Source: Xenophilus sp. AP218F (GTDB lineage Bacteria; Pseudomonadota; Gammaproteobacteria; Burkholderiales; Chromobacteriaceae). Taken from it: a DNA stretch of 64,000 nt. The notes under the pieces are model-generated. The model was not told where the DNA came from and made no database searches. It saw only the letters and a program-made list of their open reading frames with translations. Numbering within the stretch: the first letter of the stretch is position 1; each line of letters opens with the position of its first letter. The stretch is from positions 1 to 64,000 of the forward strand of contig NJIE01000026.1 in assembly GCA_002213445.1 (NCBI GenBank), read 5' to 3'. This document shows, piece after piece, positions 561 through 18,169 of this stretch. The translations under genes were made by a program, and so were the position numbers.

Positions 561-640
561 AATGGCTAGCCGGTATGCACCGACCGCAAAGGTGCGGGCA
601 TACGATAGCACCCTTGGTACATGCCAGCAGAAACCTTTAT

Positions 641-1156
641 ATGCCACAAACCATTCTTTCACAGCTTGCCTGGTACCTCGTTCTCACCAAGCCCCGTCAG
701 GAAGCCAAAGCGCTGCTCAATCTGACACAACAGGGCTATCTCTGCTACCTGCCGCTTTGTAGCGTTGAAAAAATCCGTCGCGGCAAAGCTGTGCTTGTCA
801 GCGAACCGCTCTTCCCGCGCTATCTGTTTATCCGCCTCGATAGCAGCCAGGACGGTAAGAGCTGGACGCCGATCCGCTCGACCCTGGGCGTGAGTACTCT
901 GGTGCAGTTTGGCGGGCAGCCCGCTCGGGCTGAGGACGAGCTCATCCATACACTGAAAGAGCACGAGCAAGCCAGCCCCTGCACAACTCTGTTCAAGCCG
1001 GGAGAGCTAGTGCGTATTGCCGACGGCCCATTTGCAGGGCTGGAGGCAATCTACCAATGCAGCGAAGCCGAACACAGATCAATCGTCCTGCTCGAATTGC
1101 TGCACAAACGAGTGCGCATGCAGATCGAAACTGCCCGCTTGGGCAAGCCCGACTGA
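641..1156 (+). CDS. rfaH: RfaH-like transcription antiterminator (NusG paralogue)
   Basis: The product has 171 residues. The N-terminal NGN-type domain opens with AWYLVLTKPRQEAKALLNL, the classic start of NusG/RfaH proteins, and contains the ERIR-like PLFPRYLFIRLD stretch. The C-terminal part (LFKPGELVRIADGPFAGLEAI) resembles a KOW module. The ATG at 641 was chosen over 575 because the family begins a few residues before the WY motif. RfaH proteins bind RNA polymerase paused at ops sites and let it read through long surface-polysaccharide operons. An ops-like element lies 170 bp downstream, just ahead of the sugar cluster, so this protein probably controls that operon. Its own gene sits between the rmlB and rmlC remnants. 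Confidence 0.88.
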   Translation: MPQTILSQLAWYLVLTKPRQEAKALLNLTQQGYLCYLPLCSVEKIRRGKAVLVSEPLFPRYLFIRLDSSQDGKSWTPIRSTLGVSTLVQFGGQPARAEDELIHTLKEHEQASPCTTLFKPGELVRIADGPFAGLEAIYQCSEAEHRSIVLLELLHKRVRMQIETARLGKPD

Positions 1157-1325: not shown

Positions 1326-1338
1326 GGCGGTAGCATGC
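1326..1338 (+). promoter_or_regulatory. ops element (RfaH recruitment site)
   Basis: GGCGGTAGCATGC matches the enterobacterial ops sequence GGCGGTAGCGTGC at 12 of 13 positions. It lies in the leader of the O-antigen operon, 30 bp before the first gene, and 170 bp after an RfaH homologue. The rest of the classical 39-bp JUMPstart sequence is not well conserved here. Confidence 0.75.
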
Positions 1339-1368: not shown

Positions 1369-1728
1369 ATGGCCAGCAGCCAAAGCAAAAGACAACAAGA
1401 CACCAGCTACCGCGTAATGCGTCTGTTGCAACGCAATCCGAACATAACCCAGCGAGAGCTAGCCGAGCAGCTAGGCATCAGCGTCGGCGGGCTCAACTAC
1501 TGCCTAAAGGCACTAGCGGAAAAGGGCTGGGTCAAGATGCAGAACTTCGCCCACTCCAAGAACAAGTTCGGCTACGTCTATGTGCTCACCCCCAGCGGCA
1601 TCGCAGAGAAAGCCGCGCAGACTAAACAGTTCTTACAGCGAAAGCAGGAAGAATACGACGCGCTCAGTCAAGAAATAGAAGCACTGCGTGCAGAAGTGAA
1701 GACCCAAGAACAACAGCAGGCCGAATAA
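1369..1728 (+). CDS. MarR-family EPS-associated transcriptional regulator
   Basis: This 119-residue protein has a winged-helix DNA-binding domain at about residues 15-85: RVMRLLQRNPNITQRELAEQLGISVGGLNYCLKAL followed by a wing ending in YVLTPSGIAEKA. A charged, probably coiled-coil tail rich in Q, E and K follows (about 86-119). The architecture matches the small MarR-like regulators found at the head of exopolysaccharide and O-antigen clusters (EPS-associated MarR family). It is the first gene after the ops element, so it is likely cotranscribed with the sugar genes. It may act on the palindromes at 1248-1268. The effector is unknown. Confidence 0.85.
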   Translation: MASSQSKRQQDTSYRVMRLLQRNPNITQRELAEQLGISVGGLNYCLKALAEKGWVKMQNFAHSKNKFGYVYVLTPSGIAEKAAQTKQFLQRKQEEYDALSQEIEALRAEVKTQEQQQAE

Positions 1729-1769
1729 TGGATTGGGATACCACCCTCACCACGGCCATCAGCAGGCCA

Positions 1770-2213
1770 ATGTCATCGACGCTACCATCCCCGATGTCAA
1801 GATCATCGAGCCCACGGTATTCGCGATGAGCGTGGCGGCTTTTTCGAAAGCTATAATCAACAGCGCTTTAACGAAGTTATCGGCTACGAAGTCGCCTTCG
1901 TACAGGACAACCACAGCAAATCGAACAAAGGCGTACTGCGCGGCCTGCACTGCCAACGGCCACCCCACGCACAAGGCAAGCTGGTACGTTGCGTGGCCGG
2001 AAAAGTATTCGACGTCGCCGTCGATATCCTTTAGGGCTCACCGACATTCGAGCGGGTCAGCGTCACCGTATGCGCCGACAACAAGGGTCAACTGTGGATC
2101 CCGGTAGGCTTCGCCACCCTCTGCGCAACGGCAGAATATTGTACAAGGCTACGGATTACTACGCTCCGCAGGCGGATGCATGGATCCGCAGGAATGACCC
2201 TGTGATTAGGAAT
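1770..2213 (+). pseudogene. rmlC: Remnant of rmlC, dTDP-4-dehydrorhamnose 3,5-epimerase
   Basis: Concatenating the three frames recovers most of RmlC. NVIDATIPDVKIIEPTVF is in one frame (1772 onward). RDERGGFFESYNQQRF and then VLRGLHCQRPPHAQGKLV are in a second frame (about 1820-1990). VFDVAVDIL is followed by an in-frame stop at about 2033, then TFERVSVTVCADNKGQLW. Finally ILYKATDYYAPQADAWIRRND is in a third frame (about 2137-2200). At least two frameshifts and one stop make it non-functional. With the rmlB remnant it shows that a dTDP-rhamnose pathway once sat here. The downstream epimerase gene at 6621 is a different, intact family member. Confidence 0.85.
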
Positions 2214-2417
2214 AGAGCGACCACTGCAGTACACACTCGTTTTGTAGGATTAAGGACGAGTAGGGAAGCACGCTACTGGCAGCCTCGTGCAGCCTTGTCT
2301 TGACCGGCAAGTGCTCGTCCCTCACCGACCGATACCCCTTCAATTTTCATTTTCCAGCTTTGGCTTTTAGCTCTCCATGCAGCAAAAAGCCACATGCAGA
2401 CACCAACATACAGATCG

Positions 2418-3413
2418 ATGCCAGATATCATCCTAAGCAACGGCAAAAAATTCATGGCTGCACCGGGAGTTTCCATTCTGGATGCAGCCGCTCAAGCGCA
2501 TGTGTTCTTGCCCTACAGCTGCAAAACCGGTCGCTGCAGTAGCTGTAAATGCAAGGTTGTCAGTGGTGAAACCCTTGCGCTGACCACCGAATTGGGTCTC
2601 ACCCAGGAAGAACTGGAGCAAGGATGGGTTCTCAGCTGCGTGCGCAGCGCCCAAACAGATTTGGAACTTGAGATCGATGACCTCGGCGGCATTGCGCTCC
2701 CATCGCAAAAAACTATTCCGTGCCGCATCAGCCGTATCGAACACCTGGCACCCGATGTGGTGCGCGTAATACTACGCCTGCCACCGGCAGCGGTATTTAC
2801 CTTTCTGCCAGGGCAATATATCGACATAATCGGCCCAAATGGCGTACGCCGCAGTTACTCGCTGGCCAACGCGCCCATAACCGACAAGACGCTTGAGCTC
2901 CATATCCGTGCAGTGGAAGACGGCTTGATGAGCGACTACTGGTTCAAGCGTGCTAAAGAAAATGACCTGTTGAGATTAACCGGCCCGCTTGGCACATTTT
3001 TCCTGCGCGAAACAAACGGGCAAGACCTCGTATTTCTGGCCACCGGCACAGGTATCGCACCAGTCAAAGCCATGTTGGAAGCTCTAGTAGAGTTTCCGCA
3101 GGAGCTGCAGCCCGCTTCGGTCACCGTACTGTGGGGCGGACGGACTCCGGCCGACCTCTATATCGACTTGCCCTGCCTGCCGGACCATTACCAGTTCGTT
3201 CCAGTACTGTCCCGTGCGGATAAGGACTGGGCAGGTGCCAAAGGTTATGTATACGAGGCTCTGTTACAAAATGCACCGAGCTTGAGCCGTACCACCGTGT
3301 ACGCTTGCGGCTCCGATGCGATGATTCACAGCGCCCGCAAGGTTTTGGTAGCAGCAGGCTTGCCTGCCCGGCAGTTTTACGCCGACGCATTTGTCAGTTC
3401 CGGAAACATATAA
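2418..3413 (+). CDS. ddhD: CDP-6-deoxy-L-threo-D-glycero-4-hexulose-3-dehydrase reductase (E3)
   Basis: The 331-residue product is an iron-sulfur flavoprotein. An N-terminal plant-type [2Fe-2S] ferredoxin domain (about 1-90) carries the cysteine pattern of [13 protein letters not shown] plus a fourth Cys in WVLSCVRSA. An FAD domain follows, with RSYSLANAP (about 150), then an NAD-binding domain with [16 protein letters not shown] (about 210). It passes electrons from NADH to the PMP enzyme DdhC/E1 in C-3 deoxygenation of CDP-4-keto-6-deoxyglucose. The start was placed at ATG 2418 ([12 protein letters not shown]), because an upstream in-frame ATG at 2394 adds only eight atypical residues. It is the first intact biosynthetic gene and is followed by ddhABC, as in Yersinia pseudotuberculosis dideoxyhexose clusters. 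Confidence 0.88.
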
Positions 3414-3432
3414 TTTCTACAAGGTTATCGAT

Positions 3433-4206
3433 ATGAAAGCAGTTATTCTGGCCGGAGGTCTCGGAACCCGTATCAGCGAAGAAACGACAACCCGCCCCAA
3501 GCCCATGATCGAAATTGGCGGCAAACCGATTCTCTGGCACATCATGAAAATGTACTCGCAGCACGGTATCAACGACTTCATCATCTGCTGTGGTTACAAG
3601 GGGTATGTCATCAAGGAGTACTTCGCCAACTACTTCCTGCACATGTCCGATGTGACCTTCGACATGCGCTCCAACGCTATGGAAGTCCACCAAAAGCGCG
3701 CCGAGCCATGGACAGTCACCTTGGTGGACACCGGCGACGAATCCATGACCGGCGGCCGCCTCAAGCGTGTCAGCAAGTATGTGGAAAACGACGAGGCCTT
3801 CTGCTTCACCTACGGCGACGGCGTCAGCGATGTAAACATCGCCGATACCATTGCCTTCCACCGCCAGCACGGCAAGGCAGCCACCCTTACCGCCACCTTC
3901 CCGCCGGGGCGCTTTGGCGCGCTGGATATTCAGGCCAATCAGGTCATGAGTTTCAAGGAAAAGCCCAAGGGTGATGGTGCCATGATCAATGGTGGTTTCT
4001 TCGTACTCTCGCCCAAGGTGTTCGGCTACCTGAAGGACGACAGCACCACTTGGGAGCAAGAGCCCCTGATGAATCTGGCCAGCGACGGCGAGTTGATGGC
4101 CTACCCACACGAAGGCTTCTGGCAACCGATGGATACCCTGCGCGACAAGCACTACCTGGAAAATTTGTGGGCATCCGGCAAAGCACCGTGGAAGATCTGG
4201 GACTGA
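3433..4206 (+). CDS. ddhA: Glucose-1-phosphate cytidylyltransferase
   Basis: At 257 residues it has the usual length for RfbF/DdhA/AscA. The nucleotidyltransferase signature [20 protein letters not shown] is at the N terminus, with [10 protein letters not shown] next. [12 protein letters not shown] (about 127-138) provides the metal-binding aspartate, and [11 protein letters not shown] lies near residue 185. It makes CDP-glucose from CTP and glucose-1-phosphate, the first committed step of CDP-dideoxyhexose synthesis. ATG 3433 has AAGG 8 bp upstream. It lies 19 bp after ddhD and 2 bp before ddhB. Confidence 0.93.
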
Positions 4207-4208
4207 AC

Positions 4209-5285
4209 ATGACTATCGACGCTCAATTCTGGCAAGGCAAAAAGGTTTTCCTGACCGGCCACACCGGCTTCAAGGGCAGCTGGCTCAGCCTGTGGCTGCA
4301 AAGCCTTGGCGCCGAAGTGCACGGCTACGCCCTACCCGCGCCGACCACACCCAACCTATATGCCGTGGCCCGGGTAAAAGACAGCATGGCAAGCTCGATT
4401 GCCGACATCCGCGACGCCAAGGCAGTACAAGATGCCGTGACCGCCTTCCGTCCCGATATTGTCCTGCACATGGCAGCCCAGCCGCTGGTGCGCCTCTCCT
4501 ACACTGAGCCGGTAGAAACCTACGCCACCAACGTGATGGGGACGGTCCATGTTTTGGAGGCAGCCCGCCACGTCGACAGTGTGCGTGCCATCGTCAACAT
4601 CACCACCGACAAGTGTTATGAAAATCGAGAGTGGGTGTGGGGCTATCGCGAAGACGAACCCATGGGCGGTCACGACCCATACAGCAATAGTAAAGGTTGC
4701 TCGGAACTTGTCACCAGTGCCTACCGCCGCTCTTTTTTCCAGCAGGGCAACACCGCGCTCGCCTCAGCCCGCGCCGGCAACGTCATCGGTGGTGGCGACT
4801 GGGCACTCGATCGCCTGGTGCCGGACATACTGCGTGCATTCGAAGCCGGCAAGCAAGTCACCATCCGCAACCCGCATGCCACTCGACCATGGCAGCATGT
4901 GCTGGAGCCCCTCTCGGGCTACCTGACACTCGCGCAACACCTTTATGAGAAGGGACAGCCCTATGCAGAAGGCTGGAACTTTGGCCCTAACGAAGGTGAC
5001 GCCCGCCCGGTACAATGGATTGTTGAGCGCATGTGTGAAAAATGGGGCGAGGCTGCCAGCTGGCAGCTGGATGGCGGCGAGCACCCGCATGAAGCTAATT
5101 ATCTCAAGCTTGATATCTCCAAGGCCGGCAGCCTTCTGGGCTGGCAGCCATGCTGGAACCTATCCACCGCGCTGGATGCCATTATCGAATGGCACCACGC
5201 TTGGCTATCCGGCCACAATATGCAAGAACAGTGCCTGCAGCAAATCGCTGCCTATACCCAAGCAATGAAAGCACATCACCCATGA
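4209..5285 (+). CDS. ddhB: CDP-glucose 4,6-dehydratase
   Basis: This 358-residue extended short-chain dehydrogenase/reductase has the Rossmann motif GHTGFKGSW near residue 15. The ITTDKCYEN block carries the catalytic Thr/Asp region, and [11 protein letters not shown] (about 155-165) contains the YxxxK pair. It converts CDP-glucose to CDP-4-keto-6-deoxyglucose using bound NAD. FKGSW and [16 protein letters not shown] are typical of the CDP-glucose enzyme rather than RmlB. ATG 4209 follows the ddhA stop by 2 bp, and the 3' end overlaps ddhC by the ATGA tetranucleotide, indicating translational coupling. Confidence 0.93.
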
Positions 5286-6610
5286 ACACCCAAAACAAGA
5301 CCCCAGACAGCCTGCGCCAGGAAATCGCCGCCCTCGTCCAGCAGTACGCCGATATTGTTTACGCACCCAAAGACTTCATTCCGGGCGAAAGCCCTGTTCC
5401 GGTTTCCGGCAAAGTGATCGGCGCTACCGAATTGCAATATATGGTAGAAGCTAGCCTCGATGGTTGGCTGACAACCGGCCGCTTCAACGATGCCTTCGAA
5501 AAAAGGCTGGCCGACTACCTGGGTGTCAAGCACCTGATTACCGTCAACTCCGGTTCCTCCGCCAACTTGGTGGCGTTCTCGACGTTGACCAGCCCCAAGC
5601 TGGGCGAGCGCGCCATCAAGCCCGGTGACGAAGTGATCGGCGTGGCCGCCGGCTTCCCCACCACTGTCAACCCGATTTTGCAGTTCGGCGCGGTACCGGT
5701 GTTTGTCGACGTCGACCTAGCCACCCATAATATCGACGCCAGCAAGATCGAAGCCGCCATCAGTCCGAAAACCAAGGCCATCATGCTGGCACACAGTCTG
5801 GGCAACCCGTTCAACCTCGACGTGGTGACAGCCCTGTGCAAGAAGCACAACCTGTGGCTGGTCGAAGACTGCTGCGACGCACTGGGTGCCACTTACAATG
5901 GCCAGATGGTCGGCACCTTCGGAGATATCGCAACCCTCAGTTTCTACCCTGCCCACCACATCACCATGGGTGAAGGCGGCGCAGTGTTTACCAACAATGC
6001 AGACCTGAAGCTGATCGCCGAATCGTTCCGGGACTGGGGCCGCGACTGCTACTGCAAACCGGGCAAGGACAACACCTGCGGCAAACGCTTCTGCTGCCAG
6101 ATGGGCGACCTGCCATTCGGCTACGACCACAAGTACACTTACAGCCATCTGGGCTACAACCTGAAGATTTCCGATATGCAGGCGGCCTGTGCGCTGGCGC
6201 AAATGGACCGTGTCGATGACTTTATCGCCAAGCGCCGCGCCAACTTCACCTACCTCAAGAACCGCTTGGCCAGCGTCGAACAGTTCCTGCACTTGCCGGA
6301 AGCGACACCAAATTCGGAGCCTTCATGGTTCGGCTTTCCGCTGATCGTCAAGGAAAACAGCGGCGTCAAACGTGCCGACCTGATCAATTTCCTGGAAGAC
6401 AACAAGATCGGCACTCGTCTGCTGTTTGCCGGCAACCTGACCAAGCAGCCCTATTTGGCTGGCCGCAATTTCCGCGTCAGCGGCGAACTGACCAACACCG
6501 ATGTCGTGATGAACCAGACCTTCTGGCTGGGCACCTTCCCAGCCTTAGGCCAGGAGCAACTGGACTATATCGCGGATAAGCTCGAAGAGTTCTTCGGGGT
6601 CAACTTCTAA
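5282..6610 (+). CDS. ddhC: CDP-4-keto-6-deoxy-D-glucose 3-dehydrase (E1), PMP/[2Fe-2S]
   Basis: At 442 residues this is a DegT/AspC-fold sugar enzyme of the RfbH/DdhC/AscC type. The usual PLP-lysine block reads [16 protein letters not shown], with His in place of Lys, the hallmark of this PMP-dependent dehydrase. A cysteine-rich insertion ([17 protein letters not shown], about residues 250-266) supplies the [2Fe-2S] ligands. With DdhD it removes the C-3 hydroxyl of CDP-4-keto-6-deoxyglucose. The ATG at 5282 overlaps the ddhB stop. The ddhD-A-B-C order is conserved in known 3,6-dideoxyhexose clusters. Confidence 0.94.
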
Positions 6611-6620
6611 GGTCAAGACA

Positions 6621-7157
6621 TTGGAGCTAATTCCCACCAAGCTGGAAGGTTGTTTCCTAGTGAAACCCTTCCTCGCGGAAGACGAGCGCGGAAAATTTGT
6701 AAAAACCTACCATACAGAGCAGTTCATGAAAGCAGGGCTGCCCACCCAATGGCGGGAGGAGTATTACTCCAGCTCCCGTATGGGTGTGATCCGAGGCATG
6801 CACTTTCAAACACCTCCACACGATCATGAGAAACTCGTCTACTGCTTACAGGGGCGAGTGAAAGATGTGGTTGTCGATCTGCGCAAGAGTTCGTCAACTT
6901 ACGGCCAATACGTCGCAGTCGAGCTTGATGCGGAACACGCTCACGGCCTAATGATACCCAAAGGCATGGCCCACGGCTTCTTGGCGTTAACCGAAGATGT
7001 CTTGATGTTGTACAAGGTTACCAGCATCTATATGCCAACCAATGATGCGGGTATCCATTGGGATTCCTTCGGGCTAGACTGGGGCGTTGATGAGCCCATA
7101 GTGTCAAGCCGTGATCAGTTGCACCCGGTTCTTTCTGACTTCTCCTCACCATTCTGA
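6621..7157 (+). CDS. ascE: RmlC-type sugar-nucleotide epimerase, probable CDP-3,6-dideoxyhexulose 5-epimerase
   Basis: The product has 178 residues in the RmlC cupin fold. FLAEDERGKFVKTY (about 18-31) matches the DxRG region. VIRGMHFQTPPHDHEKLVYCLQGRVKDVVVDLR (about 57-89, given here as family blocks) holds the catalytic His and the beta-sandwich core. IPKGMAHGFLAL follows at about 113. The start is TTG 6621, with AAGG 8 bp upstream. Just after ddhABC, the expected substrate is the CDP-3,6-dideoxy-4-hexulose, whose C-5 epimerisation is specific to L-ascarylose synthesis. Family membership is clear; the exact substrate is inferred from context. Confidence 0.7.
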   Translation: MELIPTKLEGCFLVKPFLAEDERGKFVKTYHTEQFMKAGLPTQWREEYYSSSRMGVIRGMHFQTPPHDHEKLVYCLQGRVKDVVVDLRKSSSTYGQYVAVELDAEHAHGLMIPKGMAHGFLALTEDVLMLYKVTSIYMPTNDAGIHWDSFGLDWGVDEPIVSSRDQLHPVLSDFSSPF

Positions 7158-7159
7158 CC

Positions 7160-8008
7160 ATGAAAATCTTCGTCACAGGCGGCACCGGCTTTGTCGGCTC
7201 TCACTTCCTTCAACAAGCTCTGGCAGCAGGACATGAAGTCGTCGCCCAACGCCGTCCCGGCAGCCGACCTAGACTAGCGCTGCAGCATGAGCCCGTTTGG
7301 GTCGATCGTATGCTGGATCAGGACTTTACCGCGGAGTTAGCAGGCTGCAACGCTGTTGTTCATCTGGCCTCACACACCCCAAACCCTCCTTACGCGTCAC
7401 TAGATGAGTGCCTTTACTGGAACGTCTATGCGACAAGCCGCCTATTACAACAGGCGGCTAATCAGGGAGTCAAAAATGTACTGATAGCAGGAACATGCTT
7501 CGAATACGGCGCAGCAGCGAATGGACAGGAGTTTGTTCATCCGGCGACCGAGATGCGTCCATCGCTGTCCTATCCAACCTCCAAGGCTGCGGCCACCACC
7601 GCCTGTTTGGGCTTGGCGCGAGAATTGGGGCTACGGCTGCAGGTGCTGCGCATCTTCCAAGTGTTCGGAGAGGGCGAGGCGACAACGCGGTTCTGGCCGT
7701 CGCTGCGCAGCGCTGCCATGGAAGGCCGCGACTTCTCAATGAGCGCGGGCGTGCAGGTCCGCGACTTCATCGAGGCTCCGGAAGTGGCGACGCAGTTCCT
7801 GTGCGCGCTTGACTTCGACGGCGTGACGCCGGGACAGCCACAGCTGCGCAACGTCGGAAGCGGCCGCGCGCAGACACTACTAGAATTTGCCCGTAGCTGG
7901 TGGGTCGCCTGGGGCGCCACTGGCCAGCTGATCCCAGGGCAGGTTGGGCTGCGACCAGGCGAACTGTCGCGTCTGGTCGCCGACGTCAAGACCGTGCATG
8001 TCTGTTAA
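7160..8008 (+). CDS. ascF: NAD(P)-dependent sugar-nucleotide reductase, probable AscF-type 4-reductase
   Basis: This 282-residue extended SDR protein has the N-terminal coenzyme loop FVTGGTGFVGSH (5-16) and the VVHLASHT block (about 66). GTCFEYG provides the catalytic Ser/Thr region, and SYPTSKAA (about 136-143) the YxxxK pair. It begins 2 bp after the epimerase stop. In CDP-L-ascarylose synthesis an SDR reduces the C-4 keto group after the epimerase acts. Following ddhABC and the epimerase, that is the most economical assignment. Alternatives are a paratose/abequose-synthase-like reductase or another hexulose epimerase. Confidence 0.65.
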   Translation: MKIFVTGGTGFVGSHFLQQALAAGHEVVAQRRPGSRPRLALQHEPVWVDRMLDQDFTAELAGCNAVVHLASHTPNPPYASLDECLYWNVYATSRLLQQAANQGVKNVLIAGTCFEYGAAANGQEFVHPATEMRPSLSYPTSKAAATTACLGLARELGLRLQVLRIFQVFGEGEATTRFWPSLRSAAMEGRDFSMSAGVQVRDFIEAPEVATQFLCALDFDGVTPGQPQLRNVGSGRAQTLLEFARSWWVAWGATGQLIPGQVGLRPGELSRLVADVKTVHVC

Positions 8009-8018
8009 GGTCATCCCC

Positions 8019-9527
8019 GTGAGCACATATCCCGACGCCGCCGGCGCGGTCGGCCGACACATCACCGTCGGCATGGTCTGCGGCGGGCTGCTGGTGGCGA
8101 CGACAATCGTCACCGCAATCATCCACTACAAGCTCGTCATCGGCCTGCTGCCGCGCGAACTGGCCGGTCTTTGGCTGCTCTTCTGGAGCTTTGGCAGCTA
8201 CCTAGCCTTCTTTGACCTAGGTATCGGCCCGACGCTGTCGCGGGAGATCGCCTTCCTCACCGCCGACAAGAACCGCTTGCCGGCCATCGCCGATTTGGCC
8301 GCGACATGCCTGCGCATCTACCTGGGCGTGGTAGCGCTGCTGCTAACGGTCGCCGCGCTCGCGGGCTGGATCCTGCTCCCGACGCTGAAGCTGCAAACCA
8401 TCTCCTCGGCAGACGCACTGCTGGCTTGGGTGCTCTTCGCCGCAGGTGCCTGCGTGAACCTACTCGGCAACTTGTCTTTTTCAGTGCTGACAGGCGAAGG
8501 CCATGTTGCCACCGAGCGCCTAACGCGTGCCTTCGGCATGCTGCTTTGGCTAGCGTTGAGTAGCTATGCGCTGATGGCCAACCACGGCCTAACTGGTCTG
8601 GCGCTAGTCTGGCTCATCAACGCCATCATAGGCCGTGCACTAGCCATGGCCGTGTTGAAGTTGCGTGTGCACGGACTGTCGCTATCGAGCGGACGATGGC
8701 GCTCCGACGTGGCGCGCCACCTGGCCCACCCCAGCGCACGCTGGGCGCTGACACAGCTTGGCGCCTTGCTGATTCTGCAAACGGCCAATGTGCTCATCGC
8801 ATGGAACCTCGGCCCAGCCGCCATTCCATCCTACGAGGCTGCCACACGCGTAACCATGGCCGTGGGCACGATCGCGCTGCTGAGTACCAACGCCTCCGTT
8901 CCCTACTATTCGCGCGCCTTTGCCGCGGACGACATCACCGGACTGCGCAGCCTGCTCTACCGCAACGTCCAGCAGGGCCTGCTGACGATGGCAGCCGCAA
9001 TCGCTGTGCTGGGTGCCTTCGCGCCGGATCTGTTCAACATGTGGCTGGGGCACGGCAACTTCATCGGTTACGCGGTGCTAATGACAATGGTGGTCATGAT
9101 GACGCTGGAGACCCATCACGTTGTACATGCAAGCCTGATAATGGCCAGCGGCCACATCCCATTCGTGCGCATTGCCATTGTTGCCGGCGTTCTGAACCTA
9201 GTGCTCTCTCTGGTACTGGTGCGCCATATTGGGCTGCTGGGTATCGCACTCGGCACCATGACCGCGCAGATGTTGACCAATAACTGGTACGCACCTTATG
9301 TCAACCTGCGCCGACTTGGAATCGGAATAGGTGACTACATGCGTGTCATGTCCTCGCGCTTCCTGGGTTTCCTCTTGATGTTCGGATCTATCGAGGCTGC
9401 ACTGGCCGTAGTACTACATGATCAGACCGCGTCGCTACGACTGGTAGTGGGCATCGGCGCTGCTGCGGTCCTATACATTGCGCTCACCCGATTCCTACCC
9501 GCGCCTCAAGCACCGTCTGGCATATGA
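8019..9527 (+). CDS. wzx: Wzx-like O-antigen flippase
   Basis: A strongly hydrophobic protein of about 502 residues with roughly 12 predicted membrane segments and an N-terminal SYLAFFDLGIGPTLSREIAF block, typical of polysaccharide-transporter (MATE/MOP) flippases. It should move lipid-linked O-units across the inner membrane. GTG 8019 is preferred because AAGG lies 8 bp upstream. ATG 7998 is in frame, would add seven residues and would overlap the previous gene. The 3' end overlaps the next glycosyltransferase by 4 bp. Flippase sequences are too diverse to infer the substrate. Confidence 0.8.
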   Translation: MSTYPDAAGAVGRHITVGMVCGGLLVATTIVTAIIHYKLVIGLLPRELAGLWLLFWSFGSYLAFFDLGIGPTLSREIAFLTADKNRLPAIADLAATCLRIYLGVVALLLTVAALAGWILLPTLKLQTISSADALLAWVLFAAGACVNLLGNLSFSVLTGEGHVATERLTRAFGMLLWLALSSYALMANHGLTGLALVWLINAIIGRALAMAVLKLRVHGLSLSSGRWRSDVARHLAHPSARWALTQLGALLILQTANVLIAWNLGPAAIPSYEAATRVTMAVGTIALLSTNASVPYYSRAFAADDITGLRSLLYRNVQQGLLTMAAAIAVLGAFAPDLFNMWLGHGNFIGYAVLMTMVVMMTLETHHVVHASLIMASGHIPFVRIAIVAGVLNLVLSLVLVRHIGLLGIALGTMTAQMLTNNWYAPYVNLRRLGIGIGDYMRVMSSRFLGFLLMFGSIEAALAVVLHDQTASLRLVVGIGAAAVLYIALTRFLPAPQAPSGI

Positions 9528-10270
9528 CCTCACCTCACATCTCCGTCATCCTGCCCAGCTACAACTCGGCACACTTCCTTCCGCGCAGCATCGAAAGCGT
9601 GCTGCAACAGGACTTCGATGATTACGAGCTGTTAGTCCTCGACAACGCCTCGACCGATGCAACCCAGGAAATCGTGGCCCGGCACGCCGATCCGCGTATC
9701 CGGGCTATCCGCCATCAGGTCAATCTCGGCATGGTGGCCAACATCAATTACGGCATCGACAACGCGAACGGTCGCCTCGGCGTTATCCTGTGCGCGGATG
9801 ACTACTGGTCTCCGGACTTTCTGTCGCGCTCGATCGCGGTCCAGCAGACGCGTCCAGGGCTGACGTTCACCAACAGCATGGTGAAGCAGGACGGAAAGGA
9901 AACTGTCTTCCCCAATGTCTTTCACGGTCTGCACGTCATTCGCCCTTGGCGCTTGCTCCGACACCTTCACGGTATCCCACTTTCGTCACTGATATTCCCG
10001 CTAGGCGCGAACCGCGCACGCTTCGACGACAGACTTCCTTTCAACTGCGACCTCGAATTCGTCCTGCGCCAGATGATCCGTCGCGGTCTGCCGCTCACAT
10101 TCATCGACTGGCCTGGCGTGTACGTGAACCTGCACGAGCACAATGAGACCAGACGCTACGACATCCGCCAGGAAAACATTAAGCTGCTAGAGATCGTGTC
10201 GCGCTATACCCCGCGGGGTTGGCTGCGCACGGTACTGGCTCTCCAACACACTAGGCTCTGCCATGTCTAA
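9524..10270 (+). CDS. Glycosyltransferase family 2
   Basis: This 248-residue GT-A enzyme has SVILPSYNSAHFLPRSIESV (7-26), LVLDNASTDATQEIV (about 36-50) and ILCADDYWSPDFL with the DxD-like metal site (about 88-92). LGMVANINYGI is the usual nucleotide-sugar loop. It should add one sugar to the lipid-linked O-unit on the cytoplasmic face. The ATGA overlap with wzx and the 8-bp overlap with the next gene place it inside the operon. Donor and acceptor cannot be read from sequence. Confidence 0.85.
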   Translation: MTSPHISVILPSYNSAHFLPRSIESVLQQDFDDYELLVLDNASTDATQEIVARHADPRIRAIRHQVNLGMVANINYGIDNANGRLGVILCADDYWSPDFLSRSIAVQQTRPGLTFTNSMVKQDGKETVFPNVFHGLHVIRPWRLLRHLHGIPLSSLIFPLGANRARFDDRLPFNCDLEFVLRQMIRRGLPLTFIDWPGVYVNLHEHNETRRYDIRQENIKLLEIVSRYTPRGWLRTVLALQHTRLCHV

Positions 10271-11282
10271 GATATCTGTCTGTATCCCCACATACGAAAG
10301 TGCTGGCACCTTGGGCCGCGCAATCAGGTCCGCGTTTGCCCAGACTGGCTGCGACATCGAGATCATTATTGGCGACAACGCGTCGACCGATAACACCGAG
10401 GTGGTCGTGAGCGACTTCAACGACAGCCGCGTAATCTACTTCCGGCACGCCACCAACATCGGTTATCCGGCCAACGTCAACTCCTGTCTTGAACGCGCCA
10501 GCGGCGACTATATCTTCATCCTATGCGCAGACGACTTTCTGACGCATGACGGAGTGATCTTGGAACTTCTTACGGAACTTCAAGCCGAGCCGAAAGCAGT
10601 CGCCTCCCACGTCCCATTTCAGCTGTATCTACAGAGCAATGAGCAATGCTTGCCTATAGGACGGCCCTTCAGTCCACTCTCTCCAGGCGTGTTGACACCC
10701 CGCGAAGTACTTACCTCGTTCACCGAGGGACGTGGCTGTTTTGGGTGGGGATGGCTGTTCCGACGCGATCTGGTCAGTCTCCAAGGCCTGCGCTTCGAGA
10801 TCGACCATGACATGGCACCCGACACAATGTTTTGGTTAACAATCAGCATGAAAGGACCCGTCGCGGAAGCTCGCTCAGGCCGCCCCGGTTATGCATTTGT
10901 AATGCACAACGAAAGCTTGGGCGGCCGCATCTTCAACGAGCAGGCGCTGAAGGTGTACGAGCAGTTGCTCACCTTCGAGTGTCGGCTTTTCGAGCTCCTT
11001 CGGCAGGAGCTGCCCGAGGTAGCCCTAGAACTATCCGGTCGTCAGTACCGCTACAGCACCTGTGAGTTCGCCGGCCTCGTCCAGAAGGGTTTCCAAGAAG
11101 GACGCCTGAACCGCCCCAAGGCACTGGACCTGCTAGGGCAGGCAGCCTGCCGCCATCCGCGGGCGGCGCTAAACCTGCGCTTTGTGTACAACCTCCTCTT
11201 CATTCTGCTGCCGGAGGCTCTACGCCACCGGATTCTCGCTGCCCGGCGCGCTACGTACGCCGGCTCCTCTATGGAGGTCTGA
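10263..11282 (+). CDS. Glycosyltransferase family 2
   Basis: A 339-residue GT2 protein that looks like a paralogue of its upstream neighbour. The N terminus reads ISVCIPTYESAGTLGRAI, then IIGDNASTDNTEVVV (about 37-51) and ILCADDFLTHDGVI (about 82-95), giving the same NASTD and CADD signatures. The C-terminal 100 residues are less typical and may hold acceptor-binding helices. It starts 8 bp inside the previous gene. Tandem related GT2 genes suggest duplication followed by specialisation for successive linkages. The linkage is unknown. Confidence 0.82.
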   Translation: MSKISVCIPTYESAGTLGRAIRSAFAQTGCDIEIIIGDNASTDNTEVVVSDFNDSRVIYFRHATNIGYPANVNSCLERASGDYIFILCADDFLTHDGVILELLTELQAEPKAVASHVPFQLYLQSNEQCLPIGRPFSPLSPGVLTPREVLTSFTEGRGCFGWGWLFRRDLVSLQGLRFEIDHDMAPDTMFWLTISMKGPVAEARSGRPGYAFVMHNESLGGRIFNEQALKVYEQLLTFECRLFELLRQELPEVALELSGRQYRYSTCEFAGLVQKGFQEGRLNRPKALDLLGQAACRHPRAALNLRFVYNLLFILLPEALRHRILAARRATYAGSSMEV

Positions 11283-12338: not shown

Positions 12339-13363
12339 ACGCTTTCGTGTCAGTCAACAGCGGCTTTGGTGGTGCAGAAAAGCAGTTTGACCAAATGGTC
12401 AAGGATCTGCGCGAGGCCGGCGTCGTTGGCGACAACTGGACCTATCAGCGCCATGATCTGTCCTCATCATCACGCTTGGCGACCTTCCGCGCGTTGTGCC
12501 GCCAGCGCGGTGGCACGGTCGTTTACAACATGAGCGTGTTGGGCATCGGCATATGGCCGCTGCTGCTGCTGCGCCTGCTAGGCAACCGCATCCTGCTGTT
12601 CCCGCACGTAGTTGTCTCGCCGGCCCGATCCCGCCCGAAACTGTGGCGCCTGCGCGCATGGCTGCAGGTCTTCAGCACGCGACTGGCAGATCGGATCGTC
12701 GCCATCTCCGACGGCAATCTGTTCACGCTCGAGCGTTTCGTGCAACGCGAGAAGATGAGCGTGGTCTACAACTACGTCGACTGTGAGAACGACACGCCGT
12801 TCCAGACCAAACCGTTGAACCGAAACATCGCGATCATTGGCCGACTTCAGGACCAGCATAAGCAGCAGTTGACGTTCCTGCGCCAACATGGTTCTCTCCT
12901 GCGCGAAAAGGAGATTGTCCTGCATCTTTTCGGCAGCGGCCCCGACGAAGCCGCGATACGTGCCACAGTTTCGGAGCAATGCCTCGACGACCACGTCGTG
13001 CTGCATGGCTGGTGCGACGAGGACACCATCTACACTCATCCGTTCAGTTTCGTATTGAACCTATCGCGCTGGGAAGGGTTGCCATTGAGCATTCTCGAAG
13101 CGATTTACCGGGACCGCATCGTCTTGCTTTCGGACGTGGACGGCAACCGGGAGCTGGCCTACGGCGACTTCCTGTTCAAGTCTGACGAGGAACTGCGCGA
13201 ACTGCTAGTGCGGTTGGTGGTAGATCAGGACATCGACTACTGCCTGCTCCGAGCGCAGAAGCGACGTCTCTATTCACGCTGCAATCGCGAACGATCGCTC
13301 CAGCTTATGGGCCGTGCCTTGCAAGATATCGACCCCGACAACGCCTGCCGAGCCAACAAGTGA
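12335..13363 (+). CDS. Glycosyltransferase, GT4-like
   Basis: 342 residues. It starts with VNSGFGGAEKQFDQMVKDL (5-23), the GGAE-type loop of GT-B enzymes. IAIIGRLQDQHKQ marks the C-terminal nucleotide-binding domain (about residue 165). LSRWEGLPLSILEAIYRDRIVL (about 244-265, in blocks) is the donor-binding E(x7)E motif. It is a retaining-type glycosyltransferase of the O-unit assembly set. The ATGA overlaps on both sides indicate coupled translation. Donor sugar not predictable. Confidence 0.8.
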   Translation: MNAFVSVNSGFGGAEKQFDQMVKDLREAGVVGDNWTYQRHDLSSSSRLATFRALCRQRGGTVVYNMSVLGIGIWPLLLLRLLGNRILLFPHVVVSPARSRPKLWRLRAWLQVFSTRLADRIVAISDGNLFTLERFVQREKMSVVYNYVDCENDTPFQTKPLNRNIAIIGRLQDQHKQQLTFLRQHGSLLREKEIVLHLFGSGPDEAAIRATVSEQCLDDHVVLHGWCDEDTIYTHPFSFVLNLSRWEGLPLSILEAIYRDRIVLLSDVDGNRELAYGDFLFKSDEELRELLVRLVVDQDIDYCLLRAQKRRLYSRCNRERSLQLMGRALQDIDPDNACRANK

Positions 13364-14649
13364 TCCTTATTATTGCCTACGTCCTCGTCTTGGCGACCGT
13401 CCTACTAGGATCGCGGAGGCTGCCTACGGGGCCGTTCCTGCTTGCGAATGCCTACGGCCTGTTCCTGACGCTTCCATGCGCGCTTGCCTACTACCTGCTC
13501 TACTCCAACGACTTTGGCATCGACTACGGAAACTTCGTACTCCAGTCTCCCATATACACTTGGATCTTTTGTTTCCAAGCATGCGTCCTTTTCGCAGGGT
13601 ATGCCGGCTATCGTTCCGGGTTTCGTTACGGCGTGCGTCACCCGCCCACCTCGCTTGTCCACGTCGATAACGAAGCACCGTCCTACAAGTTAATTACCCT
13701 GCTTATGGTGATTTTGGCCGTCGGAATATTGGTCAATGTTCACACCGCGTTCGGATTCGCTTACATCCTGGAGCCACGGCGCCTTTACGAAGTCAGTCGC
13801 GAAGGCTTCGGCACGCATTACTTTGCACTCGGCTTTTCCCTGCGCCTCGCCGCTCTACTCCTGCTAATGTCGAATTTTCGCGGCAAGGCGCTTATGCTCA
13901 CCGGATTGCTCGCCCTCTCCGTATTCACCGGCGCAAAGGTGAACACCTATGTCATCACCATGTTCGCCGTGATGCATTTCATCGTCTTCGCGCGAGCAGG
14001 ACGGGTGAACGGAAAGCTGCTGATCAAGTTGGCCCTGATCGCTTTGCCGTTGGTGTATCTCTTGATCTGGCTCACTTTTCAGGATTCAGAGATCAATATC
14101 CTGGAACTGCTAGTCGCCTACGTCAACGAACCCTGGAATAACTTCAGTCTGCTCGTGCAGTCCTTCGATCAGCACTTCCGCGACTTCTTCCTTGGCACAT
14201 TGACCTGGGAAAATAACATCATCAGTCGTATCCCACGACCCTTCTTCCCTGAAAAGCCATATCTGTTTGGCGGCTTCAGGCTGGCGAACGAATATTTTCC
14301 GGAAACCGTTGCGCTGGGCATCGGTGCCCCGTCATTCGGTTCCGAGGGAATCGCCTATGCGGACTGGGGCGTGTTCGGCCTCTTGATGCTGCTCAGCCTG
14401 AAATGGTTACTATCCTGGGTCCTAGGGCGCTTCACCTGTCTCATGACGTACAACCAGACGGGGTCGATACAGGGCAACTTCCTGTATTTCGGCGTGCTCG
14501 TGATCATGGCGGACATGTACTTCCTGACGCTGCCGCCATCGAATAACCTTGTAGACAACCTGTTCGTAGTGATCGGGCTCTCCCTGCTGTTCGGTATCCG
14601 CCGCAAGCCTATGGGGTCGACGCTTGCACTACTCTCCCCCTCGCGCTGA
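13360..14649 (+). CDS. wzy: Wzy-like O-antigen polymerase
   Basis: 429 residues, mostly hydrophobic, with about 10-12 membrane segments and a larger polar stretch around residues 250-330 (FDQHFRDFFLGTLTWENN and following) that would be the periplasmic loop. It ends in two further helices. It starts at GTG 13360 overlapping the preceding stop. Polytopic topology, poor sequence conservation and position among wzx, glycosyltransferases and a distant wzz identify it as the polymerase. It would join O-units in the periplasm. Assignment is by topology and context. Confidence 0.72.
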   Translation: MILIIAYVLVLATVLLGSRRLPTGPFLLANAYGLFLTLPCALAYYLLYSNDFGIDYGNFVLQSPIYTWIFCFQACVLFAGYAGYRSGFRYGVRHPPTSLVHVDNEAPSYKLITLLMVILAVGILVNVHTAFGFAYILEPRRLYEVSREGFGTHYFALGFSLRLAALLLLMSNFRGKALMLTGLLALSVFTGAKVNTYVITMFAVMHFIVFARAGRVNGKLLIKLALIALPLVYLLIWLTFQDSEINILELLVAYVNEPWNNFSLLVQSFDQHFRDFFLGTLTWENNIISRIPRPFFPEKPYLFGGFRLANEYFPETVALGIGAPSFGSEGIAYADWGVFGLLMLLSLKWLLSWVLGRFTCLMTYNQTGSIQGNFLYFGVLVIMADMYFLTLPPSNNLVDNLFVVIGLSLLFGIRRKPMGSTLALLSPSR

Positions 14650-15477: not shown

Positions 15478-16908
15478 ATGAAACCTATCATTTTATCTGG
15501 AGGCTCCGGCAGCCGCCTGTGGCCGCTGTCTCGCTGCCTGTTCCCCAAGCAGTTTCTGCCGCTGGTGGGCGAGGCCAGCATGCTGCAGGACACGCTCTCC
15601 CGGCTTGACGGCATCCCCGGTTGTTCGGCACCGCTACTGATCTGCAACGAGGCGCATCGCTTTATCGTCGCCGAGCAGTTGCGTCAGGCAGGTAAGGCTG
15701 CGGCAGGCATCTTGCTGGAACCGGTTGGCCGCAATACTGCACCGGCTATCGCGCTGGCAGCGCTCACCGCCACCCTGCAAGGGGAAGACCCGCTGCTGCT
15801 GGTACTGGCGGCGGACCATGTGATTGCCGACACTGCTGCTTTCCAGCAGGCAGTGGTTTGGGCACGGCAGGCGGCCGAGGCGGGTGCCTTGGTGACATTC
15901 GGCATCGTGCCCAGCCACGCCGAAACTGGCTATGGGTACATAGAGAAAGGGATCAGGGATTTGGGATCCGAGATCTGCTTGCCGGCTGGTGTATCACCCG
16001 TAGCAAGGTTTGTGGAAAAGCCGGACTTCCAGACTGCATCGGCTTATGTGGAAAGCGGGCGTTACCTGTGGAACAGCGGCATGTTCCTGTTCCGCGCGTC
16101 GGTATTTCTGGCTGAGATGGCGCGCTTTGCGCCGCAGATGCTCGAGTCTTGCCGGGCGGCACTAGCCGGCAGTCAGCAAGACCTGGACTTTATCCGCTTG
16201 GACGCTGCCGCATTTGCCGCCTGCCCAGAAGATTCGATCGACTATGCGGTGATGGAAAAAACCGACAAGGCGGTGGTGGTGCCGCTGGATGCGGGCTGGA
16301 GCGACGTGGGTTCGTGGAGCGCGTTGTGGGCAGTTGCACCGCAAGATGGTGATGGCAATGCCGCGCGCGGCGACGTAATTTCGCACGATAGCCACAACTG
16401 CTACCTACACGGCTGTGAAGGCCGCTTGCTGGCGGCGGTTGGAATAGATGACCTGGTAGTGGTCGATACTGCCGATGCAGTGCTGGTCGCCCATAAGGAC
16501 CGGGTACAGGACGTAAAGAAAATCGTCGAGCAGCTTAAAACTGAAGGCCGCAAGGAACACAGCCAGCACCGCATGGTGTACCGACCATGGGGCAACTACG
16601 ACAGCATCGATCACGGTGAGCGCTATCAGGTGAAGCGGATTACCGTGCAACCAGGCGCCAAGCTATCGGTGCAGATGCACCACCACCGCGCAGAGCACTG
16701 GATCGTGGTGTCCGGTACCGCGCGTGTGCTGCGCGGCAAGGAAGAACTGCTACTGACCGAAAACCAGTCGGTGTATATCCCGGTCGGAGAAGTGCATGCA
16801 TTGGAAAATCCGGGGCGCATTCCGCTAGAGCTGATCGAGGTACAGTCTGGCGCTTACTTAGACGAGGACGATATCGTGCGCTTCGAGGATAGGTACGGGC
16901 GGGTATAG
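15478..16908 (+). CDS. manC: Bifunctional mannose-1-phosphate guanylyltransferase / mannose-6-phosphate isomerase
   Basis: 476 residues. The pyrophosphorylase signature [14 protein letters not shown] lies at 5-18, with FPKQFLPL next. [12 protein letters not shown] is at about 180. The C-terminal type II isomerase cupin includes [18 protein letters not shown] and [13 protein letters not shown] (about 365-450). It makes GDP-mannose and can isomerise fructose-6-phosphate to mannose-6-phosphate. This implies mannose or a GDP-mannose-derived sugar in the polymer. No phosphomannomutase or GDP-mannose dehydratase gene is in the window, so those steps must be supplied elsewhere. It is the last plus-strand gene of the cluster and converges on the next gene. 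Confidence 0.93.
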
Positions 16909-16993: not shown

Positions 16994-18169
16994 TCAAGCC
17001 ACTTTGCGTGGTTTGATCACTTCGCGTTTCGGATTGGGATTGGCCTTACGCAGTACCAACAGGCGCGGGGCGCGGAAGGTAACCAAGCGACGATAGGCCC
17101 AGATATAGGCAAATACAAACAACAGCGCGCATAGTTGGAGCGCCCATTGATGGCGCCAGAACAGCAGCGCTGGCATGATAGAAAACAACGCCACACCCCA
17201 CAGATAGGGTGCAGTCAGGCTGTTGCGGCGGGTCAGGTGTTTGGCTTCCTTGCTACCCACCATCCAGCGCACCATCCGCTTGTAGATCATCTGGTGAAAA
17301 TGCATGCTATCCGGCAAGCCGGCCGCAGCCTGGCGCTTTTTACGCCGCCAGATGGAAAACAGCGTCTCGAACACTGGATAAATCAGCAGCAGCAGTGGGA
17401 ACCACGGTGAGACCACACCGGGGTGACGGGCGACCAGCAACACCGCCAGCTCGGCCAGCAGGAAACCCACCAGATAGGCCCCGGCATCGCCGGCAAAGAT
17501 CATGCCGTGCGGAAAGTTCCATAGCAAAAAGCCCAGCACTGCGGCAGCGGCAGCCAGACACAGCGCCAGCAAGGGGAGATCGCCCACCGCCAGCGACACA
17601 TATGCCAGAGCACCGAAAGCCAGGAGCGCCACACCACCCATCAGGCCATTATAACCGTCGATGATGTTGATCGAATGGCACACACCACCGGCGGCGAAGA
17701 TCGTCAGCAGCATAGCGGCAACAGGAAAACTGGCGAGCAAGGGGTCTATACCAGGAATTCCCAACGCCGGCAGGAGGCCACCCACACTCCCGATGGCGAT
17801 GGCCGCAGAGGCAAAAGCGGCCAGCAGGCGGATTAACGGGCTGACTTTCTTGGTCAGGTCTTCGACTAAACCGGCCAGAAACACCGGGCCGGCAGACAGC
17901 AACACGCCCCAATACAGGCGGTACTCGGCCTCCGGTCCGGCGATCAGCAATAAAGCACCTGAAGCCAGTAAGCCTGCCAGCACCGGTACGCCCCCAATGC
18001 GCGGCGTGGGGGCCGCGTGAAATTTCTGCACGCCGCCCAGATCATGGTCCATGGACAGGTGCGCATGAAATTGCTGAGTGCGAATCAGCAGCATGCCAGT
18101 GAGTAGCGAAACCAGCAGCGCGGTGAAAACGACGGCCAATAACATTAAAAATTTCCAATATTTGATCAA
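16994..18169 (-). CDS. wbpL: WbpL/WecA-type undecaprenyl-phosphate glycosyl-1-phosphate transferase
   Basis: 391 residues, polytopic (about 10-11 helices), of the MraY/WecA/WbpL superfamily. TPRIGGVPVLAGL (about 55-67) is the first cytoplasmic motif. NIIDGYNGLMGG (about 168-179) supplies the Mg/substrate aspartates, FAGDAGAYLVGF (about 222-233) is a further family motif, and HFHQMIYKR (about 296) resembles the HxxH-containing loop. It should start each O-unit by transferring HexNAc-1-phosphate onto undecaprenyl phosphate. It lies on the opposite strand, convergent with manC, so it escapes the RfaH-dependent operon. WbpL-like is a best guess. Confidence 0.82.
   Translation of the reverse strand: MIKYWKFLMLLAVVFTALLVSLLTGMLLIRTQQFHAHLSMDHDLGGVQKFHAAPTPRIGGVPVLAGLLASGALLLIAGPEAEYRLYWGVLLSAGPVFLAGLVEDLTKKVSPLIRLLAAFASAAIAIGSVGGLLPALGIPGIDPLLASFPVAAMLLTIFAAGGVCHSINIIDGYNGLMGGVALLAFGALAYVSLAVGDLPLLALCLAAAAAVLGFLLWNFPHGMIFAGDAGAYLVGFLLAELAVLLVARHPGVVSPWFPLLLLIYPVFETLFSIWRRKKRQAAAGLPDSMHFHQMIYKRMVRWMVGSKEAKHLTRRNSLTAPYLWGVALFSIMPALLFWRHQWALQLCALLFVFAYIWAYRRLVTFRAPRLLVLRKANPNPKREVIKPRKVA

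Follow-up and report, generated by a model that had tools for sequence, protein, structure and literature searches.

A stretch of 64,000 nucleotides from Xenophilus sp. AP218F (contig NJIE01000026.1, family Chromobacteriaceae), referred to below as the window, carries an O-antigen-type locus headed by rfaH. Within this locus, six genes are confirmed at positions 2418-8008, all on the + strand and in the order ddhD, ddhA, ddhB, ddhC, an RmlC-like epimerase gene and a gene of the short-chain dehydrogenase/reductase (SDR) superfamily (Table 1). We discuss here the evidence that this cassette encodes a pathway to a cytidine diphosphate (CDP)-3,6-dideoxy-L-hexose. All six frames are open, of full length and tightly packed: the ddhC start overlaps the ddhB stop, 10 bases separate ddhC from the epimerase gene and 2 bases separate the epimerase gene from the SDR gene. 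The ddhD open reading frame opens at 2394, and a start at 2418 is plausible. Six long adjoining frames, each matching its own family, are far beyond chance, and the place and order of the genes given in a preliminary description of this DNA are borne out by the frames and by the family matches on that strand.

DdhA, DdhB and DdhC exceed the curated NCBIfam cut-offs by wide margins, and their roles are assigned from these family matches together with sequence motifs. DdhC aligns gap-free, at 712 bits, to PDB 3bcx, which we take to be the E1 enzyme of Yersinia pseudotuberculosis, an attribution that fits the titles of the reference. The histidine of the pyridoxal phosphate (PLP) site is kept, and cysteines 198, 256, 258 and 266, all four of which also occur in 3bcx, are spaced C-X57-C-X1-C-X7-C, the formula of the E1 cluster motif. 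DdhD possesses the 2Fe-2S, FAD and NAD domains expected of an E3 reductase, and its predicted role rests on these domains, on synteny and on 37% identity to Salmonella ddhD. Since the E1 histidine, the four cysteines and the DdhD domains are all retained, a working DdhC/DdhD pair for C-3 deoxygenation is well supported by the sequences.

Table 1. Features of the locus and of its immediate border, in window coordinates (GRAVY, grand average of hydropathy)
Feature	Position	Strand	Evidence and remarks
rfaH, transcription antiterminator	575-1156	+	TIGR01955, 173.6 bits (cut-off 144.5); heads the locus
ops-like element GGCGGTAGCATG, possible RfaH recruitment site	1326-1337	+	One mismatch to the ops word
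Exopolysaccharide (EPS)-associated MarR-type regulator	1369-1728	+	TIGR04176, 157 bits (cut-off 88)
Broken rmlC remnant	1768-2166	+	65.8% to Salmonella RmlC over part of the sequence; internal stop codon
ddhD	2418-3413	+	Fer2, FAD_binding_6 and NAD_binding_1; Salmonella ddhD aligned over 329 amino acids
ddhA, glucose-1-phosphate cytidylyltransferase	3433-4206	+	TIGR02623, 483.5 bits (cut-off 300)
ddhB, CDP-glucose 4,6-dehydratase	about 4209-5285	+	TIGR02622, 519.1 bits (cut-off 278); 559.7 bits to PDB 1rkx
ddhC (RfbH/E1), CDP-4-keto-6-deoxyglucose 3-dehydrase	5282-6610	+	NF011936 RfbH, 753.7 bits (cut-off 423)
RmlC-fold epimerase, putative C-5 epimerase (AscE-like role)	6621-7157	+	PF00908, 193 bits; TTG start
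SDR, putative C-4 ketoreductase ('type 1', AscF-like role)	7160-8008	+	PF01370, 116 bits
Wzx-type O-unit flippase-like protein	8004-9527 (start uncertain)	+	NF041503, 155 bits (below the cut-off of 300); GRAVY 0.91
Glycosyltransferase family 2 (GT2)-type gene	9524-10270	+	PF00535, 98 bits
GT2-type gene	10263-11282	+	PF00535, 94 bits
Wzy-like polymerase, guessed from position and hydrophobicity	13360-14649	+	GRAVY 0.71; 7 hydrophobic stretches of 19 residues
manC, GDP-mannose synthesis	15478-16908	+	TIGR01479, 749.9 bits; closes the locus
WecA-like polyprenyl-phosphate sugar-phosphate transferase	16994-18169	-	PF00953, 104 bits; TIGR02380 below cut-off; adjoins the locus

The epimerase and its clade

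The product of the gene adjoining ddhC has a position, a fold and a phylogenetic placement that agree with a CDP-specific C-5 epimerase of the RmlC fold. Among proteins of solved structure it is closest to WbcA of Yersinia enterocolitica (PDB 5buv, 176 bits; 46% identity over 160 amino acids), and the best chain of a deoxythymidine diphosphate (dTDP)-RmlC reaches 131.5 bits. A table in PMC9095892 lists 5BUV as a CDP-6-deoxy-hexulose epimerase, and the substrate given there differs from the one expected here in not being 3-deoxygenated. In a first tree of 41 rows, the window epimerase falls into a clade of 20 rows (100/99) together with WbcA and the ddh-linked epimerases; the same clade comprises 21 rows (100/99) in the second tree, which has 40 rows and omits the near-duplicates L142 and L143. 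The rmlC remnant and L095, L105 and L136, being copies or fragments, were left out of both trees. The examined stretches of some members of this clade lack ddhA and ddhB: that of L013 is cut off where its contig ends, and neither gene is seen in L018; L112 stands outside the count. A union of the window epimerase with six true RmlC proteins was rejected by the approximately unbiased (AU) test (p-AU 2.6e-06), so that the grouping with dTDP-RmlC, which by the preliminary description would have spoken against the pathway, is not borne out.

Residues His61, Lys71, Tyr131 and Asp165 correspond to those described as catalytic in RmlC in passages of PMC9095892 and PMC7949155. At the position of the catalytic tyrosine 5buv carries Cys, and Tyr is present in the window protein, in the 18 remaining rows of the first clade and in the 21 rows outside it. 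The same genome carries a separate and complete rmlB-D-A-C operon on another contig (C26), whose RmlC scores 275 bits, so that the window epimerase would be dispensable for rhamnose synthesis. We infer from these comparisons that the enzyme is specific for CDP-sugars and for C-5. Its fold, catalytic residues and clade point to inversion at that carbon, as does the chemistry of its presumed substrate: C-3 would no longer be a stereocentre once DdhC and DdhD have removed its hydroxyl, leaving C-5 as the sole place for a useful inversion.

The reductase and its relatives

The SDR is 282 amino acids long. Its short C-terminus had raised the suspicion of a truncated protein, which is ruled out by 14 relatives of like length (L007-L020, 275-286 amino acids). 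These relatives, which share at least 39% identity with it, come from the best 80 loci of one contig scan; Tyr138 and Lys142 are invariant in the 15 aligned rows. In 13 of the 14 loci the SDR gene is immediately preceded by that of an epimerase of the same clade (aligned end within 80 bases), L019 being the exception. In the stretches examined, a ddhC-like gene is present in all 14, ddhA and ddhB in 12, ddhD, as detected with the window query, in six (L007-L012), and the exact E1 cluster motif in eight. The relatives span Massilia to Verrucomicrobia. The named carriers closest to the window among these best 80 loci are Massilia rhizosphaerae, Roseateles terrae, R. depolymerans and Aquincola tertiaricarbonis, which share the same six genes in the same order, with 74-80% identity for the SDR (80% for Massilia L007) and 69-74% for the epimerase; unlike the cassette, the flanks examined show only weak matches to the polymer genes of the window. 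No Yersinia appears among the 80 loci. In a plasmid search all 100 records fell below 60% identity to the SDR, the 25 listed reaching at most 33%.

The preliminary description had also named Prt and Abe as candidates against which the reductase should be compared. Identity of the window SDR to the Salmonella proteins amounts to 23% for Abe and 20% for Prt, and a 100/99 branch separates it from both, so that it is neither of the two. The abequose and paratose modules of Salmonella resemble the cassette in placing sugar-specific genes after ddhDABC, and differ from it in lacking an epimerase.

Other epimerase-linked SDRs, hereafter type 2 as opposed to the type 1 of the window, stand beside ddh genes in five loci: L119 (genome G249), L128, where only a distant DegT-family protein (33%) takes the place of RfbH, L138, on a plasmid of Sphingomonas hengshuiensis, L157, from the same family as the window, and L197. 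The five type-2 rows form a group inside the clade that contains Abe and Prt (100/99). The second SDR tree was computed without the long-branch rows L021_sdr and L161_TKSDR; both were present in the first, where the two types were still apart. Since the epimerases of type-1 and type-2 loci fall in one clade, a single epimerase lineage appears to be paired with reductases from two distinct lineages of the SDR superfamily.

L197 is the sole enterobacterial epimerase-linked example found. Its ddhC product is 89% identical to Y. pseudotuberculosis E1, its epimerase has Tyr at the catalytic position and its SDR is 23% identical to that of the window. We place it in the Enterobacteriaceae because L193, a member of the same family, encodes Abe and RmlB proteins 100% and 99% identical to those of Salmonella. 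Searches for enterobacterial markers in class-level samples found none in 369 and 185 genomes; in a phylum sample MukB was present in 7 of 180 genomes, among which G579 was chosen and its family then searched for RfbH. No epimerase was seen in the examined stretch of the Yersinia-like locus L195 (96.8% to the 3bcx protein), nor at an E-value of 1e-15 in 9 genomes of its genus, a search that shows little as it had no positive control in that genus.

Identity of the sugar

In the route proposed here, DdhA would make CDP-glucose and DdhB the 4-keto-6-deoxy sugar, whose C-3 hydroxyl would be removed by DdhC, with its PLP and [2Fe-2S] cluster, acting together with DdhD. The RmlC-fold enzyme would then invert C-5 through His/Tyr proton exchange, and the reduction of C-4 would fall to the SDR because it is the only reductase of the cassette. 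As the comparisons with RmlC and with Prt/Abe both came out in its favour, a C-5-epimerised CDP-3,6-dideoxy-L-hexose pathway is well supported by the sequences. Inversion of C-5 followed by reduction of C-4 can only lead to 3,6-dideoxy-L-arabino-hexose, which is ascarylose, or to 3,6-dideoxy-L-lyxo-hexose. The product is probably CDP-L-ascarylose, feeding a surface polysaccharide of Wzx/Wzy type. The C-4 configuration, and hence the name ascarylose, is likely by analogy with the known bacterial outcome of this route, and by analogy only because the reductase lineage differs from that of the enterobacterial example found. Of the ascarylose pathway put forward in the preliminary description, the CDP-3,6-dideoxy-L-hexose route therefore stands, and the C-4 configuration does not stand equally, the SDR lineage being apart from that of L197.

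The sugar-specific genes of Y. pseudotuberculosis serotype O5a are those of an epimerase and then a reductase, AscE and AscF. The cassette resembles that pathway by its E1 motifs and by gene order: as outlined in PMC3715488, Salmonella loci run from rml through ddhDABC to sugar-specific genes, and the pattern of ddhDABC followed by end genes extends to Y. pseudotuberculosis, ascarylose included. A passage of PMC8533242 places ascarylose in the O5a antigen of this species, which is said there to make all known natural isomers, five of them being named.

The epimerase also passes TIGR01221, the model of dTDP-rhamnose RmlC, at 166.6 against a cut-off of 155.75. The same model gives the name RmlC, just above its cut-off, to the ddh-linked epimerases L119:10149-10697 and L138:7319-7879; judged by the tree, the name rmlC looks like a misnaming in all three cases. 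Were the name correct, the epimerase would be a dTDP-RmlC for rhamnose present here by chance, and the SDR would make paratose or abequose. The rmlC remnant upstream could be cited for this reading together with the TIGR01221 score, but it is hard to reconcile with the tree and the AU test, with the complete rml operon on another contig, with the recurrence of the epimerase-SDR pair and with the distance of the SDR from Abe and Prt, and we consider it very improbable. Several observations weigh against the CDP-L-ascarylose reading. The forks within the epimerase clade are mostly weak in both trees. Tyr at the catalytic position is the rule in the fold and does not discriminate C-5 from C-3,5 epimerases, since the RmlC rows carry it as well. 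At 6 of the 14 type-1 loci the E1 cluster motif is missing from the ddhC-like protein, five of these keeping the His segment without the Cys spacing and L018 having neither; the type-1 SDR family is thus not tied to one type of 3-dehydrase. A single group of type-1 (15 rows) and type-2 (5 rows) SDRs is rejected at p-AU 1e-13, in a test weakened by the naming of the groups after the first tree had been seen. Because the window SDR belongs to a separate lineage, C-4 stereochemistry cannot be transferred to it from L197.

This last point leads to the other C-4 epimer. By delivering its hydride to the opposite face, the type-1 SDR of the same pathway might produce CDP-3,6-dideoxy-L-lyxo-hexose, one of the two outcomes that the stereochemistry permits. 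That one epimerase clade is joined by two distinct reductase lineages would be in keeping with two products, and L-3,6-dideoxy-lyxo-hexose is named in a passage of PMC7224695 as a sugar of nematode metabolites. Unrelated reductases can nevertheless share one product and the sugar is missing from the five 3,6-dideoxyhexoses named in PMC8533242, so that we hold this outcome to be unlikely, if the likeliest of the alternatives. A full-text literature search, with most subscription papers outside its reach, returned no report of bacterial L-3,6-dideoxy-lyxo-hexose, and at the level of titles and abstract beginnings the literature searched held no report of ascarylose in Chromobacterium or its relatives. 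One passage of PMC7729866 gives tyvelose the name 3,6-dideoxy-L-arabino-hexose. By the usual nomenclature, we take this naming to be a slip. A tyvelose pathway would call for a CDP-paratose 2-epimerase beside the reductase; at an E-value of 1e-15, the Salmonella Tyv query was nowhere the best match within the first 18 kb of the window.

Locus context, distribution and exchange of end modules

The ops-like element was found by searching with the ops word. The sole exact GGCGGTAGC of the window lies in this element, 0.62 being expected per 64 kb. With up to two mismatches the word is matched 10 times in the window against 10.5 expected, so that weak matches are meaningless. The exact word occurs at the homologous place (position 1024) in L161, a locus from another genus of the same family, and GGCGGTAGC is present in 8 of 30 other family stretches, its placement having been judged for L161 only. 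The location of the element between rfaH and the ddh operon suggests that expression of the locus is controlled by RfaH.

The comparison with L161 is instructive in other respects. Both loci carry rfaH, an ops element (one mismatch in the window), the regulator and ddhDABC, the DdhD, DdhA, DdhB and DdhC proteins being 86, 97, 94 and 97% identical to those of the window. Between the regulator and ddhD, L161 has rmlA-rmlD-rmlC where the window has only the broken rmlC piece, the scar of a lost rml operon that L161 has kept. DNA identity amounts to 87.8% over 1768-6610 and stops at the ddhC stop codon; directly after it, where the window has its epimerase and SDR, L161 carries a transketolase pair and a different SDR. 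The epimerase-SDR pair thus looks like an exchanged end module, both the exchange and its direction being deduced from this one pair of loci. The scar could also mean that the whole operon is silent or decayed. Six open, full-length frames, the retained catalytic residues and the rfaH gene and ops-like site preceding the operon speak against such a state, which we regard as improbable.

Downstream of the cassette, the two GT2-type genes are, from their position, candidates for the dideoxyhexosyl transferase, and the product of 13360-14649 matched no family in the family scans. The WecA-like protein beyond manC is perhaps the initiating enzyme.

Above its cut-off, RfbH is found in 11 of the 369 genomes sampled from the class, counting that of the window, in 10 of 392 from the Enterobacteriaceae-like family and in 29 of 61 from the family of the window, where it occupies 31 places. 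An epimerase stands beside it in two of the 11 class genomes (the window and G249) and in one of the 10 Enterobacteriaceae-like loci (L197). The preliminary description had called the sugar rare: the type-1 SDR is indeed confined to one of the 61 family genomes, the window's own, with 30% relatives in two others, but rarity does not extend to the cassette, which recurs in Massilia, Roseateles and Aquincola, or to RfbH in the family.

The 31 family places were sorted by the surroundings of ddhC in the fetched stretches. An epimerase occurs with a type-1 SDR at one (the window) and with a type-2 SDR at another (L157), Abe-like and Tyv-like genes are found together at one, and no such module was recognised at two. 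A transketolase pair lies downstream at 12. An acetolactate-synthase-like thiamine diphosphate (ThDP) enzyme is encoded at 11, within two genes of ddhC at nine, further downstream in L179 and upstream of ddhA in L180. Pfam confirmed the assignment for representatives of the ThDP and transketolase proteins. These 23 loci (L153, L158-L177, L179 and L180), 12 with a split transketolase and 11 with the ThDP enzyme, in eight of these with a close NeuB-like protein, are predicted to make 4-C-branched 3,6-dideoxyhexoses of the yersiniose/erwiniose type, or new ones. In L158 a protein of 592 amino acids follows ddhC (8448-10223); its N-terminal part weakly matches an acetyltransferase, its C-terminal part is a PLP domain of DegT type, and the split transketolase comes next. 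At the remaining three places (L178, L181 and L182), RfbH is followed by a glycosyltransferase gene and then by ddhA, ddhB, RmlC-like and SDR genes that belong to a further lineage, with 36-39% and 28-29% identity to the best-matching queries; two CDP-sugars may possibly arise there from one locus.

With such enzymes downstream of ddhC at 22 of the 31 places and upstream at one, the end product of the window could itself be a dideoxy sugar with a 4-C branch, like yersiniose or erwiniose, or with some other modification. The scan of proteins between 2394 and 16908 found no ThDP enzyme, however, nor did transketolase and ThDP queries find one in the first 18 kb, which makes a branched product highly unlikely.

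The window thus holds what would be a full route to an L-form 3,6-dideoxy sugar in a genome outside the enterobacteria, and this route recurs in other phyla. An exchange of end modules directly behind ddhC would illustrate how such sugars get swapped on the cell surface. What is new is the reductase lineage, and would cease to be so if AscF proved to be of type 1; two such lineages behind one epimerase clade raise the testable question of whether the sugar is the same. It is conceivable, although we would not expect it, that a second, separately recruited reductase lineage of opposite C-4 outcome serves the window as well as its relatives, which range from Burkholderiales to Verrucomicrobia, and places L-3,6-dideoxy-lyxo-hexose in a bacterial surface polymer; the two reductase types would then together explain the two L-sugars, ascarylose and L-3,6-dideoxy-lyxo-hexose, that are named from nematode modular metabolites. 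Should the sugar be ascarylose, these bacteria would display the sugar of nematode pheromones.

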